Positions 36,440 to 45,930 of a DNA stretch of 64,000 nt are shown here, in pieces; within the stretch, counting starts at the first letter, position 1, and each line of letters opens with the position of its first letter. The stretch covers positions 62,001 to 126,000 of the forward strand of contig JAJPIK010000068.1 of NCBI GenBank assembly GCA_021324795.1, given 5' to 3'. The notes below the pieces were generated by a model. It did not search any database. It had not been told where the DNA came from and saw only the letters and a list, made by a program, of their open reading frames with translations. This stretch comes from Chloroflexota bacterium (GTDB taxonomy: Bacteria; Chloroflexota; UBA6077; FW602-bin22; CADDYW01). The translations under genes and the position numbers were made by a program.

Positions 36440-37309
36440 GTGGCAAGAGTGAGTGTGGTCGCAGCGTTGTCGGAGAATATATCCGCCAAATCCAGGTATC
36501 TTACCCTAGATCCTCGTGCGCTCGCTCAGAAGGTCGTGGGCGAGCCGGCGAAAACTCTTGAACTCCAGATTCTCGAGCTCGTTGACTGGATGATCCATGA
36601 GCTTGCAACACCACTCGCTTCGCTGACGATTAGTGCCGAGGTGCTCGCGAGCAGTTTTGAGACAATGGAGCCAGACGAAGCTCGTGAGGCTCTTCGGCGC
36701 ATTCACCGCAATACATTCTGGTTGAAAGCACTCGTCGACAACTTCAAGCAATCGGTCCGAGCGAGTCGAACTGAGCCGAATTTTCGTCTGGTTGATTTGA
36801 GCACGTGTTTGGAGACGGCCTGTTCTTTGGTTCAACCAATCATTGACTCCCGAGGGCAAACGGTGCTGGTCGGTGGAATGCCGGACCAGCCATTGGTTTG
36901 GGGGGATTGTCACTGGATCGAGCACATTCTCGTAAACTTGCTCATGAATGCGAGCAAGTATTCGAACAAAGGTGGCTCGATCTGGCTTGATATCGTCGAG
37001 GTCGAAAATGCCTTCCAGGTTCGGGTAATCGACTCGGGGCCTGGTATTCGCCTTCACGACCAGGCGCGTATCTTTCGACCCTATACGCGGGGCGCGGCAG
37101 CGAAACGTGGGGGGGTGGAAGGCATGGGATTGGGGCTGCACGTTGTCAAGAGCCTGGTTGAAGCACAGGGGGGATCGGTTGGCGTCCAGAGCGTCCTCGG
37201 GAGGGGATCAGTCTTCTGGGTTGCATTGCCAGGCTATCGGCGCGACGAGACAGCAACGCCGGTTACGTCCGCGCTTGCTGGATGTGCTGCTGCTTCAGAG
37301 CAAATGTAA
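36440..37309 (+). CDS. Cytoplasmic sensor histidine kinase, first gene of the lasso operon
   Basis: This 289-residue kinase has the H-box WMIHELATPLASL (His53), N-box LVNLLMNASKYS near residue 165, G1 DSGPGI and G2 GMGLGLHVV. It has no transmembrane segment and no recognised sensor domain, only about 45 residues before the H-box, so its input must be cytoplasmic or a partner. GTGs at 36440, 36449 and 36455 are all possible starts; GGAGG at 36433-36437 is best spaced for 36449. The response regulator follows 67 bp later. The pair begins the operon that carries the lasso proteases, which implies signal-controlled peptide production. Confidence 0.9.
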   Translation: MARVSVVAALSENISAKSRYLTLDPRALAQKVVGEPAKTLELQILELVDWMIHELATPLASLTISAEVLASSFETMEPDEAREALRRIHRNTFWLKALVDNFKQSVRASRTEPNFRLVDLSTCLETACSLVQPIIDSRGQTVLVGGMPDQPLVWGDCHWIEHILVNLLMNASKYSNKGGSIWLDIVEVENAFQVRVIDSGPGIRLHDQARIFRPYTRGAAAKRGGVEGMGLGLHVVKSLVEAQGGSVGVQSVLGRGSVFWVALPGYRRDETATPVTSALAGCAAASEQM

Positions 37310-37376
37310 TGGGCAGGTAATCAATCCGTCACGGATGATCGTTGATAGTGGTTAATTTGGGGATGAGGTGTTTGTG

Positions 37377-38072
37377 ATGAAGATTCTGCTGGCGGACGAT
37401 GACTCCGACATGTTGGATGTGACGGCCTATGCGTTACGGCGGGAAGGCTTCAACATCATCGTTGCTACGAATGGTGCCCAAGCTCTCCGGCGATGGCAAT
37501 CAGATGATCCTGACTTGGTTTTACTCGATGTGAGCATGCCCCGAGGAAATGGCTTCGAGGTATGCCGAAAAATACGCCAAACGTCCACGACTCCGATCAT
37601 TATGCTCACCGGAGCTGATGACGAAGAGCATGTTGTCAAAGGTTTTTTGCACGGCGCGGACGACTATGTTACCAAGCCTTTTAGCGCGAAGCAGTTGGCG
37701 TTGCGCATTCGGGCGGTGTTGCGTCGTTGCTCGACCAATCCGATACGTGAAGCCGTCCCAGAGTTGCGCGTTGGCGACTACGTCTTGGACGTGGAATCCT
37801 GCCAGGCACATCGAGAGGGTGAAATCGTCCAGCTCACTGCGCTGGAATTCCGAATTCTGCATGCGTTGACGGTAAATGAAGGACATGTCGTGAGCTTTCG
37901 CCGCCTGGTCGAGCGAGCTTGGGGATACGATGGCGGCGATGCGTCGATGCTCAAGACTCATGTAAGTCATATTCGGAAAAAGCTTCACTTGCAGCCGGGC
38001 TGCCCGGGCTATATTGGTGTCGTGCATGGCGTTGGCTACTATCTCTTACGCTCGTCGCAAGGGGCAGCCTAG
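37377..38072 (+). CDS. OmpR-family response regulator
   Basis: This 231-residue protein has a receiver domain with acidic residues ADDDSD, phosphoacceptor Asp51 in VLLDVSMP, and the lysine in YVTKPF. The C-terminal winged helix of OmpR/PhoB type has LTALEFRILHALTVNEGHVV and HVSHIRKKL. The ATG at 37377 has GAGG 8 bp upstream; a GTG at 37368 would add three residues. It is the partner of the kinase just upstream. Its likely targets are its own promoter and the promoter of the cyclase-precursor operon. Confidence 0.93.
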   Translation: MKILLADDDSDMLDVTAYALRREGFNIIVATNGAQALRRWQSDDPDLVLLDVSMPRGNGFEVCRKIRQTSTTPIIMLTGADDEEHVVKGFLHGADDYVTKPFSAKQLALRIRAVLRRCSTNPIREAVPELRVGDYVLDVESCQAHREGEIVQLTALEFRILHALTVNEGHVVSFRRLVERAWGYDGGDASMLKTHVSHIRKKLHLQPGCPGYIGVVHGVGYYLLRSSQGAA

Positions 38073-38171
38073 CTAATCGCGATTTTGTTCGCTCACCGGT
38101 GAGGTTTAGCCAGAGCGAAACACGGAGTGCGCCAGTTTCTGAACGGCGTACAATGGGAGATGGATGAGACC

Positions 38172-38627
38172 ATGCAGGGCATTCGCCTCATTCGCCGTTT
38201 TTGGGGATTGGCGCCATCGGATCGCCGATTGTTAGTGCTTGCCGTCTGGCAGCTTTGCTGGGTTGGCATGCTGGCGAGAATATTCGGTTTTCAGTCGCTT
38301 GTGCGCCAGGCGCAAGGAATCCGTCCGCCCAACGATTACACCCCAAGCCCGGTCGAGCTAGAACGGGCATACGTTTATGCCCACTGGCTCGAGTCGGCTG
38401 CCCGCCGACGGCTCATTAACGCGTACTGCCTCCAACGTTCACTCGCTCTCCACCGATGGCTCCAACGGGAAGGGATGCCCAGTGTGCTCCAGATCGGCGT
38501 TTGGAAAGGGGGAGACGTCTTGCACGCCCACGCTTGGGTCGAACTTGGGAATCACGTGGTGAACGATCGACCCGCCGCGATCGCCTCGTTTGTTCCTTTA
38601 GCTCAAAATCTTCCCAAGCAAGTGTGA
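38172..38627 (+). CDS. Lasso peptide leader peptidase B2 (transglutaminase-like)
   Basis: This protein of about 151 residues belongs to the Transglut_core3 family that removes the leader from lasso precursors. The Cys-His-Asp catalytic residues are Cys86 (NAYCLQRSLALHRWL), His120 (VLHAHAWVEL) and Asp132 (VVND). An N-terminal amphipathic part, VLAVWQLCWVGMLARIFGF, is typical of B2 proteins. It needs the B1 protein (40140) to present the leader. Start choice between ATG 38160 and 38172 rests on spacing from GGGAG; a GTG at 38127 is also open. It is transcribed with the two-component genes. Confidence 0.9.
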   Translation: MQGIRLIRRFWGLAPSDRRLLVLAVWQLCWVGMLARIFGFQSLVRQAQGIRPPNDYTPSPVELERAYVYAHWLESAARRRLINAYCLQRSLALHRWLQREGMPSVLQIGVWKGGDVLHAHAWVELGNHVVNDRPAAIASFVPLAQNLPKQV

Positions 38628-38971
38628 GATCGCTTGTTATTGCAGTCGGATCTCAACCCCTTCGTAACCCAGCCTTTACTCGCATTGCACACCACTCTCT
38701 GAAGATATTCTCCAGATAGTGCCTGGGCGGACGACGAAGCTGTTCGACGACGAACAGAAGCTTGTTGGAGTGCGAAGCTCGAAAACGGCAGTGGTCCTTT
38801 CCCCCAAGGGGCGTCAGCCGGATTTACGAGTGTCTTTGTCTGGCCTGTGGATTGGCTGATGAAGAGATGGCGGTACGAGGGCGGCATTTCAACGTCGAAT
38901 CCTTCACCACATTGGAGGCAGGATTCCGAAGTTGGCCCACCAGAAGACTGCAAGGAGGCGAGGCAACCGGG
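38628..38971 (+). other. 344 bp gap between B2 and the DegT-like gene
   Basis: No gene is supported here. The DegT-like frame stays open upstream to 38762, with an in-frame ATG at 38867 (MAVRGRHFNVES), but this part lacks homology to the family N-terminus. A short stem CCCC-AA-GGGG lies at about 38802-38811. The stretch may be a remnant of a lost gene or a long leader region. Confidence 0.4.
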
Positions 38972-40108
38972 ATGCGCGTTCCATTCGTAGATCTCAAGGC
39001 GCAGTATGCGACGATCAACAATGAGATCGTCAAAGAGGTCATGACTGTGCTCAAGGGGATGAATCTGCTGCTTGGACCAAACGTTACGGCATTCGAAACC
39101 GAGTTCGCCGCCTACTGTCAGACACAGTACGCGATTGGGGTCGGCTCAGGAACTGATGCTCTCCATTTGGCGCTCCGCGCGTGCGGTGTCCGCGCCGGAG
39201 ACGAAGTCATTACGGTCTCCCATAGCTTCATCGCCACGGCGGAAGCGATTGTTATGGTGGGAGCAACGCCAGTCTACGTCGACATCGATCCCCATACATA
39301 CACGATGGACCCCGCTCAAATCGAGGCGGCGATTTCCGAGCGCACGCGCGCGATTGTGCCAGTCCATTTGTACGGCCAGATGGCCGATATGGATGCAATC
39401 ATGGCGATTGCGCGACACCATGGCCTGGCCGTGGTCGAAGATGCTTGTCAAGCAGCTGGCGCGAGCGATCATGGGCGAAAGGCAGGCGGCATCGGCGATG
39501 CCGCGGCTTTTAGCTTCAGTCCGACGGCGAACTTAGGAGCATATGGGGATGGCGGTGCAGTCACGACGAATTCTCGGGCAATTGCCGAGGAAGTGCGACG
39601 ATTGCGCAGTCACGGCCTATTGGCAGAGGATGAATGCGAGGAAATGGGGGTTAATTCGCGGCTTGACGAGCTTCAGGCAGCCATTTTGCGGGTGAAGCTG
39701 CGTCACCTCGACCGGTGGAATGATCTGCGTCGCCTCCACGCCGAGACGTATCGTCAATTGCTCAGCGATTCGCGAAAGTTGCGACTCCCGCATACCCGTT
39801 CCGGCGCTTCGCACGTCTATCGGCATTACGTAGTCCAAATCGAGGACCGAGACTACGTTCGCCAGTCACTTGGCGCGCTCGGGATCGAATCGGGTGTTCA
39901 CTATCCAATCCCGATTCACTTGCAGAAGGCATCCGAGGCGATCGGGAGGACGGTCGGTATGTTGCCGGAAACACTCCGCATTTCCCAGCACATTCTCTCT
40001 CTTCCAATGTACGCCGAGCTCGAACCGGAGCACTTATCCTATGTCGCGGCATGCTTACGGACGGTAACGGGGTTGGAACGGTCCAAGTTGCGGGTAAACT
40101 TCGGTTAG
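38972..40108 (+). CDS. DegT/DnrJ/EryC1/StrS-family protein with Ala at the PLP lysine position
   Basis: This 378-residue protein starts at ATG 38972, after GGAGGCGAGG. It is full length and keeps the family's PLP pocket: GSGTDALHLAL, the aspartate in VVEDACQAAGA, NSRLDELQAAIL and HVYRHYVVQ. At the Schiff-base motif, normally FSFxPTKNLG, it reads FSFSPTANLGAYGDGGA, with Ala186 encoded by GCG at 39527-39529. Without this lysine it cannot hold PLP as an internal aldimine or perform ordinary sugar transamination. It may have another chemistry, a structural role, or be inactive. Family members usually make aminosugars, and no sugar gene is nearby. It sits inside the lasso operon between B2 and B1. 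Confidence 0.93.
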   Translation: MRVPFVDLKAQYATINNEIVKEVMTVLKGMNLLLGPNVTAFETEFAAYCQTQYAIGVGSGTDALHLALRACGVRAGDEVITVSHSFIATAEAIVMVGATPVYVDIDPHTYTMDPAQIEAAISERTRAIVPVHLYGQMADMDAIMAIARHHGLAVVEDACQAAGASDHGRKAGGIGDAAAFSFSPTANLGAYGDGGAVTTNSRAIAEEVRRLRSHGLLAEDECEEMGVNSRLDELQAAILRVKLRHLDRWNDLRRLHAETYRQLLSDSRKLRLPHTRSGASHVYRHYVVQIEDRDYVRQSLGALGIESGVHYPIPIHLQKASEAIGRTVGMLPETLRISQHILSLPMYAELEPEHLSYVAACLRTVTGLERSKLRVNFG

Positions 40109-40139
40109 GGCCGTAAGAGACGAGGATCAATTGGGAGGA

Positions 40140-40430
40140 ATGAGGTTGCGGCAAGTCAGTCGAGTGCCAGCGATCGAGGAAACAGTTGCTTGGGCTGATC
40201 TCGAAGGGGAGTCGGTCCTTTTGAACGTCCTCGAAGGCCTCTATTTTGGTCTAGACGAAGTGGGGACGATGATCTGGAAGCTGGTCTCAGAAGGACTCGC
40301 CGCAGACCAAATCGTCGCGCGACTGCTCGAAGAGTTCGAGGTGGCGCCTGAGCAACTCGAAGGTGACGTCGCGGATTTCTTGCTGACACTCGAAGCGAAG
40401 AAGTTGATCCACTTCGTCGAACAGCATTGA
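40140..40430 (+). CDS. Lasso peptide B1, PqqD-like RiPP recognition element
   Basis: This protein of about 96 residues is a stand-alone PqqD-type recognition element. The patterns VAWADLEGESVLLNVLEGLY, FGLDEVGTMIWKLVSEG and FEVAPEQLEGDVADFLLTLE are typical: a beta-hairpin then a three-helix bundle. In lasso systems it binds the YxxPxLxxxG leader and hands it to B2. Three starts are close (TTG 40131, ATG 40140, TTG 40146), with GGGAGG at 40133-40138. Its stop codon is 9 bp from that of the convergent kinase gene. Confidence 0.92.
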   Translation: MRLRQVSRVPAIEETVAWADLEGESVLLNVLEGLYFGLDEVGTMIWKLVSEGLAADQIVARLLEEFEVAPEQLEGDVADFLLTLEAKKLIHFVEQH

Positions 40431-40439
40431 AGCATCCGA

Positions 40440-41411
40440 TCATGCGCTCCACCCGGTCAATGGATCCGGTTGGCACCTACGCGGCTTCGTACACTGCATC
40501 TGCTCTTCCACGAGCCGTGCTCCCTCGGAGAGCAACGCGAGCGAACGCGGCCGCGCGAGGTCGAAGACGGGCACGGTCCGGACCAGAGCAGTGCATTGTC
40601 GCAGGTGTTGAGAAGCCGCTTTGCCTCGCAGTAACATTGCCCCAAAGCGCGCGGCATAGGAGTTACTGATCAGACGGAGAATCGCGTCGCGAGGCGGAAG
40701 CAGGGTAAGCTTACTCTCCGTGGCCACGGAGAGTAAGTATATTCCGGCAAGCGGAATGGGGTGGCTCTCGAAGCTCTCGGCCATCCGGCGAGAACGCTTC
40801 TCGTATCCCGGTGCGACCCGAGGAAGCAGGGCCGGATCGCCGCCAACCGATCTGACCGCATCGGGCCACAGCTTGACTTGCGGGAAGCCCGAGAGCACGA
40901 TCGGTCGTTCGCCGCTGACGTCCAACGCGACAACGTCGTCCGCCAGCAGACTGTGACCTCTCGCGCATAACGTCGCCGCCATGGTTGACTTGCCATTTCC
41001 CTTACCCGCGACGAAGACCACGGCCTGGCCACCGACCGCCACGGCGCTGGCGTGGAGAACGAGGTGTCCTCGTTGCTGGAGGAGAAGCGCCATGATGGTA
41101 CCCAGGAGAGGCAAACGAACGATTGATTCGTCGTCTTCCGAGCATGGCTCGACCACGATTTCATTGCCGTGTCGGACCAGATAGGCCCCGACGCCAGCCC
41201 AGGCCAGATAAGCCTGGTCGGCGCCGACGAGATAGCGCTCTTGCTCCCTGCCATCGCTCGATAGAGAAAAACCGACCTTCCCTCGCCGGATGTTCACGTC
41301 GGGGTTGTCGCTGGGAGACGGTTGCAGCTCTGGTAGAACGAGTGCCGAGCGGATGCCCAGTCCGTAGGCGGTGTAGTGATGCATCGATTTCTCACGTGCC
41401 TTTATTGTCAC
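40440..41411 (-). CDS. HPr kinase-like protein of the lasso cluster
   Basis: This 323-residue protein resembles the C-terminal domain of HPr kinase/phosphorylase. The P-loop is VAGKGNGKSTMAATL near residue 135, followed by LLADDVVALD (Walker B). The N-terminal 120 residues have a beta-rich pattern as in lasso-cluster kinases. In paeninodin-type systems such a kinase phosphorylates the C-terminal serine of the precursor, and the precursor here ends in serine. It follows the exporter stop by 3 bp; the GTG at 41411 and ATG at 41384 are possible starts. Phosphorylation is inferred, not shown. Confidence 0.88.
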   Translation of the reverse strand: MTIKAREKSMHHYTAYGLGIRSALVLPELQPSPSDNPDVNIRRGKVGFSLSSDGREQERYLVGADQAYLAWAGVGAYLVRHGNEIVVEPCSEDDESIVRLPLLGTIMALLLQQRGHLVLHASAVAVGGQAVVFVAGKGNGKSTMAATLCARGHSLLADDVVALDVSGERPIVLSGFPQVKLWPDAVRSVGGDPALLPRVAPGYEKRSRRMAESFESHPIPLAGIYLLSVATESKLTLLPPRDAILRLISNSYAARFGAMLLRGKAASQHLRQCTALVRTVPVFDLARPRSLALLSEGARLVEEQMQCTKPRRCQPDPLTGWSA

Positions 41412-41414
41412 CGT

Positions 41415-43211
41415 TTAGACCCCATCTGAGACCATCGTATCGAGATATGCCGAGGACGCGGGCGGGAGCGCGTCTCGGAGACGCCAGTCTCCACCAAATT
41501 GCAGTTCGTAGAGTTCGCGGAAGAGTCCCGGACGTCTCAGTAGCTCCGCCGGTGTCCCCTGCTGGACAACTTTTCCTTCGCTAAGGACCAGGACTCTATC
41601 GGCTTGCTGAACCGTCGTCAGGCGATGGGCAATGACGAATGTCGTGCGGCCGCGGGTAAGATCAGCTAACGCGGCTTGGAGAAGCGTTTCGGAACGCGCG
41701 TCGAGCGCCGAGGTGGGTTCATCGAGGACGAGAATGCGTGGATCGCGTAGGAATGCGCGCGCAATCGCCAGGCGCTGCTTCTGTCCCTCTGAGAGCTGAA
41801 AACCCCGCTCGCCCACGTTCGTGTCTAGCCCATTGGGAAGTCCCTCGATAAATTCCCAGGCATTCGCGGCGCGGAGCGCGGCAATAATTTGCGCATCGTT
41901 GGCATCCTCGTACCCCAGGCATACGTTTTCGCGAATCGTCCGGGCGAACAGAAATGTATCCTGGAAGACCACTCCAATCTGGCGTCGGAGACCCTCCAGT
42001 GTTAAGTCGCGGAGATCCTGGCCATCGAGAAGCACCCGCCCGCAGGTCGGATCGTAAAAGCGACAGATGAGACTGGCGATAGTCGTCTTTCCCGCGCCGC
42101 TCGGACCAACGAGAGCGATCATCTGCCCGGGCCAAGCGGTGAAAGAAATGTCTTGGAGCACGGGATGATCCGACGTGTAGGCGAAACCAACGCCCTGGAA
42201 CTCAATCCGCCCTTCGACGTTACTGGGCCAGCGGGCATCCGGGCTTTCCGGAACGCGAGGGGTCTGATCGAGAAAGGACTGGAGGCGATCTGCCGTGCCC
42301 CGCGCTTTCTGGAGCGTACCGACCAGACCAAAGATTTGACTGGCCGGGGTGAAGGCGTAGCCGAAGAGTGAGCGCATCGCGATGAGTGTCCCGAGAGTCG
42401 TTTCGCTGCGAATGACGAGATAGCCGCCGTAGCCAAGGATAATCGCGCTTACCGCGAGTGACAGGACCAATTGGCCGGTCCCGAGCCCGGTCTCCAGCAT
42501 TGCGATGCGCATACGCAGGCGAAGCAGGTCCCCCAGACTTCGACTGAGATCCCTTCGTTGTCGGTTCTCTTCTCCGAAGGTGACGAGCTCGCGCAGGCCG
42601 GCTAACCCTTCGTGCAGCCGTTCGTTTACTTCCGCGGCCTTCGCTTGCGCACGCCGCATGGCGGGCCGTAGGGGCCGGGTGGCAAACCAGAGACAGACGA
42701 CTACCAGCGGGGGCAGTATCCCGCTAGTCACTGCAAGCTGCCAGTTCAACGAGAACATGAAGGCCAGCGCTAGTACGAGGGTCACAACGTTGCCCAGTAT
42801 GCCGAGCAGTCCGTTACCCAGCAGGCTTGTCAAATTGGGAATGTCATTCACGAAAAGGGAGAGCGTCCTCCCACTGTGTTCCTGCCGAGAGAAGGCAAGC
42901 GACAGCATCTCGACGTGGGCGAATAGTCGTTCCTGAAGCCGTTTAGTCAGCCGCTCGGCGAAGTATTTCTGGAGTAGTCGTCCGGACGTCGAAAGGCAGG
43001 TCGAGCCGAGCCAGAGACCAACGTAAAGGGTCAGAAGTGGCGGCAGCAGGCTGAGTCGCTGGCCCAGGATCACTGCGTCGATCAGTTGCTTTTCGACAAG
43101 TGGGAGTCGCAACGTTATCAGCGGCGTCAAGACTGCGATAAGAACGAGGCCTGCCAGCAGCCACCAGGCACCGGGCTCTTCGCCAAAGAGCAAGCGTCGA
43201 ATCAGTTGCAT
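41415..43211 (-). CDS. ABC transporter (lasso peptide exporter, D protein)
   Basis: This 598-residue half-transporter has six membrane segments in residues 1-320, then an ATPase domain with Walker A GPSGAGKTTIASL, Q-loop FQDTFLFA, signature LSEGQKQRLAIARAF, Walker B ILVLDEPTSALD and switch IAHRLTT. It lacks an N-terminal C39 peptidase domain, as expected because B2 removes the leader. It should export the mature lasso peptide and give self-immunity. It lies about 205 bp downstream of the precursor gene, with a strong hairpin between. Confidence 0.95.
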   Translation of the reverse strand: MQLIRRLLFGEEPGAWWLLAGLVLIAVLTPLITLRLPLVEKQLIDAVILGQRLSLLPPLLTLYVGLWLGSTCLSTSGRLLQKYFAERLTKRLQERLFAHVEMLSLAFSRQEHSGRTLSLFVNDIPNLTSLLGNGLLGILGNVVTLVLALAFMFSLNWQLAVTSGILPPLVVVCLWFATRPLRPAMRRAQAKAAEVNERLHEGLAGLRELVTFGEENRQRRDLSRSLGDLLRLRMRIAMLETGLGTGQLVLSLAVSAIILGYGGYLVIRSETTLGTLIAMRSLFGYAFTPASQIFGLVGTLQKARGTADRLQSFLDQTPRVPESPDARWPSNVEGRIEFQGVGFAYTSDHPVLQDISFTAWPGQMIALVGPSGAGKTTIASLICRFYDPTCGRVLLDGQDLRDLTLEGLRRQIGVVFQDTFLFARTIRENVCLGYEDANDAQIIAALRAANAWEFIEGLPNGLDTNVGERGFQLSEGQKQRLAIARAFLRDPRILVLDEPTSALDARSETLLQAALADLTRGRTTFVIAHRLTTVQQADRVLVLSEGKVVQQGTPAELLRRPGLFRELYELQFGGDWRLRDALPPASSAYLDTMVSDGV

Positions 43212-43350
43212 TGACTTCGGTAACTCCCTAAGAGGTAACGGTACGAGACTGCCATGCCCTGACCCTGTCGCCCGGACGTGAACGTCCGGCGGAATTTGTT
43301 TAACGGATATCGCTTACCTGCAGCTTGTCAGTGATTACGTGCAGAATCTG

Positions 43351-43383
43351 GCCATAGCGGCGCCCATCAGGCGCCGCTATGGC
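43351..43383 (-). terminator. Perfect 14 bp hairpin downstream of the lasso precursor gene
   Basis: GCCATAGCGGCGCC and its exact reverse complement are separated by CATCA. No T-tract follows on the minus strand, so it is more likely an attenuator or an mRNA-stabilising 3' stem that sets precursor expression above that of the exporter. A smaller stem, GCGGCG-CTT-CGCCGC, lies at 43401-43415, right after the precursor stop. Confidence 0.65.
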
Positions 43384-43416
43384 AGGCGAACGACGGAATC
43401 GCGGCGCTTCGCCGCC

Positions 43417-43587
43417 CTAGGAGCAGATCAGACCGGGATGCGGCTCGCTGGGGTTGCAGACGTTGTTGACACTGATCAACTGCCCATTGACAATAATGTT
43501 GTCCGGGCTTCCTCCCGTCTGTCCAGCCGTGATCTGTTCCAGCCGGCCATACTCGACCAGCGTTGGAGGCCGGTAGGCTCTCTTCAT
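43417..43587 (-). CDS. Lasso peptide precursor A (56 residues)
   Basis: This short gene starts at ATG 43587, 7 bp after a near-perfect AGGAGGTGA site. The leader is 21 residues and has the motif YxxPxLxxxG as Y5, P8, L10, G14 (YRPPTLVEYG). Thr20 is at position -2, the lasso signature. The 35-residue core begins GQTGGSPD: Gly1 and Asp8 would close an 8-residue macrolactam ring. The tail has Cys23 and Cys34, which could form a disulfide, and ends in Ser35. The core is long for a lasso peptide. It sits between the cyclase and exporter genes on the same strand. Confidence 0.93.
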   Translation of the reverse strand: MKRAYRPPTLVEYGRLEQITAGQTGGSPDNIIVNGQLISVNNVCNPSEPHPGLICS

Positions 43588-43729: not shown

Positions 43730-45736
43730 TTAGGCCTCTGCCGTCGCAAGACAGAAATCGGGCTCAGAAGGAAAGTCTGAATTCCAAGGTGGAGGGACGG
43801 TCACTCGTTCGGGCCGCGGCAAGGTGAGTGCCCGCAGCCAGGTCTCCAGCCCCACTAGCTGCATCAGATAGACAATGTCCGGGGCCGGCCCGCCGGCCCG
43901 TATCGCCTCCAGTCGGGACCAGAAGCGCTGCTGATCCACGTAGCCTCGACGGGCAATCTCCGACCGCCCGGTCGGACCGAAGGCGGCTTCGTAGAGCGGC
44001 CACTGACGCTTGATCTCGCTCTCGAGGACACCATGAAAAACAGTCTTCGACGTTCGAGTGCGAATGCTCTCCGGGAGGATTCCGCGCATCGCCTGGCGAA
44101 CCAGTCGCTTCGACCCGGCATAGAAAGCATCGCTCTCGGGATGTGGGGCAAACTTCAGCTCCGGTGGAATCGCGAGCAGAAACTCGTGGAGCCGCCGATC
44201 CGCGAACGGTCGCCAGAACTCAAGCGGCCAGGGCACGGGATGTCGCGCGACCTCGGGCGGGTAAAGGATGCGGAACTCGGCCTCCCGCGTCGGATTTGAA
44301 AAGTATCGTCCTCTTTCCATCTCAAGAGCAAGTTGCCGGTGGCGTCGGACCAACTCCTGGCGCAGTGGTTCGGGTATCCAGAGTGGCAGGAAGGCCTCTT
44401 GGTTCCGTGCGATGGACCGTGCGAGATAGCTCGAATTGATCCACCGTTGCAGTGGAAGCGGCAAGAGGGGCGCCAAACAGTATAGGGCGATGATCTTGCG
44501 CAGCGATTCATCTGACCGCCGCCGATACGTCGAGAAGTACTGCCAGAAAGCCCTCAGTTGACCTCGGCGCAACAAAGAGTCGAAAACGAGCCAGGATCCG
44601 CCGACACACCCATCGGCAAGATCGCCGGTGAGGAGCGCACGCACGCCACTTTGGCAAGCTGTGCCGAAGAGCGCGTCGCGTCCTTCGCTGATGCCCAGGT
44701 TAGGGGCCTCTAGGAAGCCGCGTGGCTCGAGCTGTAATCGCCCTGCGAACTGACCACAGGAAATGTACCGTGCCGTGAATCCGTACTTCGCCTGAACTTC
44801 TTCTACCAGGGAGCGCTCGTCGCAGTCTAGGTGGTCGAAGACAAAGCTGAAGCTCGTGAAGCCGCGATCCTCAGCCTGCCCGGCGCGAAAGATCTCCTGG
44901 GCAACACTAACAACCGCTGAGGAGTCTAGTCCACCACTCAGCAACGCTCCGACCGGGGGTGAGCTCCGAAGTCGCACCTTTACCACATCGAAGAAGAGCG
45001 AGCGATAGTGCTCGGCATACTCCTCCTCCCGACGGTAACGCAGCTCGGCCGGTGCCTCGAATGTCCAATAGCGTCGAGTGTGCAAGGTGTTGCAATCGGC
45101 GAGGAGGAGATGTCCGGCCGGCAACGCCCAGATATCTCGGTAGAAGGTAGCCGCTTGGTCTTTCTCGTTTCGGAACATGTTGAGGGGAACGAGAAAGTCG
45201 AGGATGCGCTCGTCGTTCGATTCGATCGGGACCGACGGGTCTTGGAGAAGCTGCTGAATCTCGGATGCCACTGCGAGGACGCGAGCGTCGGCTCGATAGA
45301 AGAGTGACCGCTGACCACTGGTATCACGCGCGGCAATCAGACGCTGCTGTCGCGGATCCCAAACCACGAGGGCGAAGTCACCAAGCAGACGCTCGAACCC
45401 TCTCAGGCCCCACGTTTCATAGACCCGTAGGATGATCTCCGCGTCACTCGTCGATGCGGGCGGGGAGTCAGGCAGCCTTCCTAACAATTCCTCGCGATTG
45501 TCGAGGCGCACGTCGGCAATCACGACGCAACTGGTTCGTGGGCTGACCAGCGGCTGCTGCTCCCGAAGCTCCTCCGGGGTGATTGCTAGCTTACCGAATC
45601 CGAGGCTGACGATACCAAAATCGCGGACCCATTGACCGTCAATGGCCCGATAGGGGGCTGCCGCGAGCATCGCGCGAACAGCGGCCGGGTCGGCATTCTG
45701 CCCGTCGCGGCAGAGGAGAGCGGTGAGACTGCTCAC
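43730..45736 (-). CDS. Lasso cyclase C (asparagine synthetase B-like)
   Basis: This 668-residue protein has an N-terminal glutaminase-like domain and a C-terminal asparagine synthetase domain. The ATP pyrophosphatase loop is GALLSGGLDSSAVVS near residue 265. The start GTG at 45736 has GGAGG just upstream; it gives Ser at position 2 (MSSLTALLCRDGQ) instead of the catalytic Cys2 of asparagine synthetase, so glutamine hydrolysis is lost, as in lasso cyclases. LLTGDLADGCVGG replaces the usual GDGGDELFGG. It would adenylate Asp8 of the core and close the ring with the Gly1 amine. The precursor gene follows directly. Confidence 0.93.
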   Translation of the reverse strand: MSSLTALLCRDGQNADPAAVRAMLAAAPYRAIDGQWVRDFGIVSLGFGKLAITPEELREQQPLVSPRTSCVVIADVRLDNREELLGRLPDSPPASTSDAEIILRVYETWGLRGFERLLGDFALVVWDPRQQRLIAARDTSGQRSLFYRADARVLAVASEIQQLLQDPSVPIESNDERILDFLVPLNMFRNEKDQAATFYRDIWALPAGHLLLADCNTLHTRRYWTFEAPAELRYRREEEYAEHYRSLFFDVVKVRLRSSPPVGALLSGGLDSSAVVSVAQEIFRAGQAEDRGFTSFSFVFDHLDCDERSLVEEVQAKYGFTARYISCGQFAGRLQLEPRGFLEAPNLGISEGRDALFGTACQSGVRALLTGDLADGCVGGSWLVFDSLLRRGQLRAFWQYFSTYRRRSDESLRKIIALYCLAPLLPLPLQRWINSSYLARSIARNQEAFLPLWIPEPLRQELVRRHRQLALEMERGRYFSNPTREAEFRILYPPEVARHPVPWPLEFWRPFADRRLHEFLLAIPPELKFAPHPESDAFYAGSKRLVRQAMRGILPESIRTRTSKTVFHGVLESEIKRQWPLYEAAFGPTGRSEIARRGYVDQQRFWSRLEAIRAGGPAPDIVYLMQLVGLETWLRALTLPRPERVTVPPPWNSDFPSEPDFCLATAEA

Positions 45737-45930
45737 TCGGCCTCCAGGCACGCCCAGCTTGCTCCACATCGTACCGAGTTGACGATGTGCCTATCGTGGC
45801 AGGAACCATCGCAGCGGTTCTCACTTACCCCTTGCTCATCTGGTCGGGGATCTGCCGTGCTGGACACGCGCCCAACCTGTTCTCTAGTCGAAGTTACCAT
45901 CATCAACTACTCACCACCACTTTTCCCCAA

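Follow-up and report, generated by a model that had tools for sequence, protein, structure and literature searches.

We report that a 56-codon gene (A) in a 64,000-nucleotide stretch of Chloroflexota DNA (the window) probably codes for a long-tailed lasso peptide precursor of the TbiA family, with a tail that would be closed by a disulfide (class IV) and a terminal serine that would most likely be phosphorylated by the product of a neighbouring kinase gene (K). The family is small and largely uncharacterised within Chloroflexota, and it is not wholly new, since TbiA-alpha and TbiA-beta of Thermobaculum terrenum are among its members. The long tail with its two cysteines is conserved throughout the family, which would extend lasso peptides past pandonodin (33 residues in all), the longest-tailed lasso peptide characterised (PMC13352647). 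Moreover, the family offers a concrete candidate, open to test, for the substrate of TtOGT, a bacterial O-GlcNAc transferase homologue that has been crystallised (PMC4683255).

Gene A and its surroundings

Gene A (43417..43587, minus strand; translation MKRAYRPPTLVEYGRLEQITAGQTGGSPDNIIVNGQLISVNNVCNPSEPHPGLICS) is preceded by AAAGGAGGTGAATAG-ATG, with the ribosome-binding site AGGAGGTG a few bases 5' of the ATG. Its product divides into a predicted 21-residue leader with the pattern Y5xxP8xL10xxxG14 and Thr20 at position -2, and a 35-residue core (GQTGGSPD/NIIVNGQLISVNNVCNPSEPHPGLICS as ring/tail) with Gly1, Asp8, Cys23, Cys34 and a C-terminal Ser. The product thus has the YxxPxL-type leader with Thr at -2, the Gly1 and the Asp within positions 7-9 that are used to recognise lasso precursors, and its only two cysteines both lie in the tail, which is the sequence criterion for class IV. 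The NCBIfam lasso leader model NF033521 scores it at 21.3 bits (curated cut-off 19), and no Pfam family was matched. The first-pass annotation had read a strong ribosome-binding site, the same leader, Thr -2, Gly1 and Asp8, a long core with two tail cysteines and a terminal Ser in a 56-codon frame between the cyclase and exporter genes, and all of this was recovered, as was its predicted 8-residue ring, for which Gly1 and Asp8 are invariant among the relatives. Its two claims of novelty did not survive: the leader is already caught by NF033521, and the TbiA-alpha and -beta precursors, built on the same plan, were known and had solved leader-RRE structures. The NF033521 match, the conserved residues of the relatives and a pN/pS of about 0.25 among paralogues argue that the reading frame is more than chance.

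A complete lasso cluster surrounds A in the window, with a B1 leader-recognition protein (RRE), a B2 peptidase, an Asn-synthetase-like cyclase (C) and an exporter (D). C (43730..45769, minus strand) has the Asn-synthetase/GATase architecture and an SGGLDS motif (PF00733, 3e-32; NF033535, 1e-97, below the exception cut-off), and it is 49-60% identical to the cyclases of related clusters. D (41415..43211, minus strand) is an ABC exporter in which the C39 peptidase domain is absent. The HprK-like lasso kinase gene K (40440..41411, minus strand) starts right after D, and its product carries LHAS..GNGKST..LADD, i.e. the His-Lys-Asp-Asp motif. The other genes lie on the plus strand: B1 (40131..40430), a PqqD-type RRE that matches the solved TbiB1 (5v1u, E 7.5e-13); a DegT/DnrJ-type sugar aminotransferase (38762..40108) between B2 and B1; B2 (38127..38627), a Transglut_core3 leader peptidase; an OmpR-type response regulator adjoining B2 (37368..38072), which may regulate the cluster; and its partner histidine kinase (36440..37309).

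A strong GC-rich hairpin (43349..43385, minus strand; z = -3.2 for the 101-nt stretch) occupies the gap between A and D. It is likely an attenuator or an RNA-stability element, and an attenuator favouring the precursor mRNA is plausible. The DegT gene was considered as a conserved tailoring gene and discarded, because a search for its counterpart in the related clusters gave no match; a sugar epimerase gene is also found just 5' of B1 in another locus (L038). The source genome (assembly about 94% complete) has two lasso clusters and the B2 gene of the window is the only one detected in it, so this B2 may serve both.

A precursor family that includes TbiA

The source genome is 4.9 Mb and its class is sampled by 29 genomes. 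Among 400 Chloroflexota genomes, close cyclases (about 50-60% identical) were found in eight, including the source genome, and relatives of A in at least six further genomes and in the second cluster of the source genome (L040, contig C13). Members of the family are A of the window, the alpha and beta precursors of L039, the precursors of L040 to L044, and L080 to L083; in the Chloroflexota genomes searched, a sample of this one phylum, strong full-length profile matches were confined to these members. Apart from T. terrenum, the genomes are probably represented by draft or metagenome assemblies. A cyclase search of a collection of named genomes gave one distant Erythrobacter locus and nothing else, and a tblastn search of plasmids with the precursor gave no real match.

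Thr(-2), Gly1 and Asp8 are invariant in eight independent precursors, and the ring is mostly GxxGxxPD across the family. All eight have exactly two cysteines, both C-terminal to the ring, compared with one of 16 other Chloroflexota lasso-like precursors (Fisher p = 1.2e-5, with cores delimited by eye at Thr -2). Homologues without Asp8, Thr -2 or the cysteines, named in the first-pass annotation as what would speak against it, were thus sought and not found among these eight. Core length (29-44 residues), the loop between the cysteines (4 to 20 residues) and the C-terminal residue (S, V, F, G or P) vary.

Five paralogous copies in one genome (G300) differ mostly by synonymous changes (pooled pN/pS 0.25 overall and 0.27 in the core) and are under purifying selection. 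Four of the family's precursor genes in this genome (L080, L081, L082 and L083) are extra copies, scattered and with no adjoining cyclase, B1 or exporter gene; maturation of their products probably relies in trans on the C114 cluster.

The family profile matches the leader peptides TbiA(beta) in PDB 5v1u, solved with an engineered Thr(-5)Glu change, and TbiA(alpha) in 5v1v, and these are the L039 precursors. The TbiA leader matches together with the TbiB1 match identify L039 as the tbi cluster, and with the match to 5DJS (see below) they identify its genome as that of T. terrenum. A shares with TbiA the GxxGxxPD ring, the long core, the two tail cysteines and a Tbi-type cyclase. The TbiA product was named therbactin in 2024 (PMC11420955) and was still termed a "putative" lasso peptide in 2025 (PMC12325987); no report of a mature TbiA structure was found in the literature.

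Predicted maturation and alternative readings

In the maturation route that we propose, B1 would bind the YxxPxLxxxG leader of A, B2 would cut after residue 21, one residue past Thr -2, C would join Gly1 to Asp8 around the tail, and D would export the product. The two tail cysteines would then close a second, tail-borne ring, as in pandonodin, and this disulfide probably acts as a stopper; a tail-tail disulfide is what defines class IV (PMC13352647, a 2026 review). Such a pandonodin-like bond in A is supported at the sequence level by the retention of both cysteines in 8/8 precursors although the loop between them varies in length, as expected for cysteines that pair with each other.

The cysteines might instead stay reduced or serve otherwise (in metal binding or a dimer), which would make the product a class II lasso with the tail as a flexible extension. 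The reducing cytoplasm is where maturation occurs, and a scan of cluster genes turned up no thiol oxidoreductase or other disulfide-forming enzyme, but known class IV clusters are likewise without one (PMC9266682), and exactly two cysteines at highly variable spacing in every independent precursor point away from this reading, which we consider rather unlikely. The long tail may be trimmed at its C-terminal end. That a host protease removes the C-terminal part and leaves a short conventional lasso as the mature product would agree with core lengths of 29-44 residues and the variable tail beyond the cysteines; it is nevertheless quite improbable given the purifying selection over the core, the conserved distal cysteine and an exporter that lacks the C39 peptidase domain. 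Finally, A, C, D and K lie on one strand and B2, DegT and B1 on the other, and K differs in type from the kinases of the sister clusters, which shows that the locus has been rearranged and could mean that it is decaying, A being either no substrate or one whose ring closes into an unthreaded branched cycle. With genes and motifs intact, a strong ribosome-binding site and conserved relatives, we regard this as very improbable.

The long-tailed, disulfide-closed lasso is therefore the reading we prefer. It is weakened by one precursor of another genome (G301) that keeps leader and ring and has no in-frame cysteine. In that gene (L058:1-423) the ring (GEGEGGLD) and Thr -2, Gly1 and Asp8 are intact and the tail is overlong; a frameshift or an assembly error is possible.

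The first-pass annotation had noted the C-terminal Ser, which is indeed present in A and is not conserved in the family, and had overlooked K next to D, which would explain this residue. K has the features of a paeninodin-type kinase, being HprK-like with the His-Lys-Asp-Asp motif that lasso kinases require (PMC9266682), and A ends in the corresponding Ser. In the tree K forms a clade (97/95) with the kinases of L049 and L050, where the precursors have a terminal Ser or Thr, while the Tbi-type kinases fall into a clade of their own (99/99), with V, F, G, P or S as the last residue of their precursors. The window therefore looks like a Tbi-type cluster with a paeninodin-type kinase. Phosphorylation of the C-terminal Ser of A is the likeliest role of K, and the co-occurrence of this Ser with a motif-keeping kinase after the exporter makes us lean towards it. 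The motif is no proof of the site, since several Tbi-type partners end without Ser and yet their kinases keep it. As a trait of the family the Ser/kinase pair was rejected, because the relatives' precursors end in S, V, F, G or P though their kinases carry the motif. In L043, where the precursor ends in Ser, a PF14907 nucleotidyltransferase gene (L043:4452-5738, minus strand) adjoins the exporter; it is possibly of the PsmN kind.

GT41 genes of the relatives and comparison with known systems

The first-pass annotation missed a link in the relatives of A to O-GlcNAc transferase (OGT). The gene 3' of D in L040 and L039 encodes a TPR/GT41 glycosyltransferase (OGT/SPINDLY-like), and in the family search GT41 genes were present in four of the eight genomes with Tbi-type clusters, each copy there directly following D. 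The gene starts 13 nt after D in L039 (L039:1864-3450, minus strand) and about 46 nt after it in L042 (L042:5419-7272, plus strand); its ATG overlaps the D stop in L040 (L040:4826-6655, minus strand), and the overlap with the end of D is roughly 19 nt long in L044 (L044:3454-5421, plus strand). Only eight of the 400 Chloroflexota genomes have GT41. The idea that it is always lasso-linked in this phylum was dropped, as the copies in the other four (G018, G202, G244 and G272) lie away from lasso genes. Two of the clusters that contain GT41 also have a gene with a methyltransferase domain, inside the cluster or next to it (L039:5791-7170 and L040:4029-4709, both minus strand).

The L039 enzyme is identical to PDB 5DJS over 529/529 residues. 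We take 5DJS to be the TtOGT structure of PMC4683255, as the matching description also indicates. That study saw no in vitro activity of TtOGT, detected no O-GlcNAc proteins and identified no homologue among the Chloroflexi genomes published by then; its text mentions neither lasso nor operon (PMC4683255). We propose lasso precursors as its substrates. In all four GT41 clusters there is a precursor whose Cys loop is 16-20 residues long and contains 4-11 Ser/Thr, compared with loops of 4-10 residues and 1-3 Ser/Thr in the three clusters without GT41 (Fisher p = 0.03, for seven clusters grouped post hoc), and the simplest reading would be that GT41 glycosylates the Ser/Thr-rich loop. After 5DJS the next best PDB match of the L039 enzyme is SPINDLY, an O-fucosyltransferase (PMC9715652, PMC10027727), so the donor could be GDP-fucose. 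Lasso peptides glycosylated by other routes are known, such as pseudomycoidin (PMC9266682), and a 2025 paper on glycosylated lasso peptides is cited in PMC13352647. We somewhat favour the view that certain TbiA-family lassos are O-glycosylated on a disulfide-closed, Ser/Thr-rich tail loop by the GT41 of their operon, with the window as a sister version that has a Ser kinase in the place after the exporter. If true, this would make a lasso-peptide tailoring enzyme of TtOGT, which has been described as belonging to a bacterial protein O-GlcNAc system.

Among characterised systems, pandonodin, LP2006 and the felipeptins resemble A in having a long tail to which both cysteines are confined, a likeness of architecture. 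Pandonodin and LP2006 also have no dedicated oxidoreductase (PMC9266682, PMC13352647), and none turned up among the genes scanned in the window cluster. Pandonodin has a core of 33 residues, A one of 35, and the longest in the family reaches 44; the disulfide of A is a predicted one. Paeninodin and pseudomycoidin (kinases PadeK, ThcoK and PsmK) share with the window a C-terminal Ser and an HprK-like kinase with the His-Lys-Asp-Asp motif (PMC9266682); paeninodin is a class II lasso with no disulfides, whereas the precursor family and cyclase of the window are Tbi-type.

The closest system is that of T. terrenum. TbiA-alpha and -beta have the leader pattern, GxxGxxPD ring, Asp8 and two tail cysteines of A, and their B1, cyclase and exporter are homologous to B1, C and D of the window. 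The cores are 37 and 44 residues long, compared with 35 in A, and the Cys loop spans 8 residues in TbiA-alpha, 17 in TbiA-beta and 10 in A. The Tbi kinases belong to another clade than the paeninodin-type K and are encoded between B2 and C, or between two precursor/cyclase units, whereas K follows D. TtOGT (5DJS, Tter_2822) is encoded directly downstream of TbiD, and three related clusters have a homologue after D, while the window cluster has no GT41, a precursor that ends in Ser and a DegT gene in addition; the GT41 copy of the source genome belongs to the second of its lasso clusters, on contig C13.
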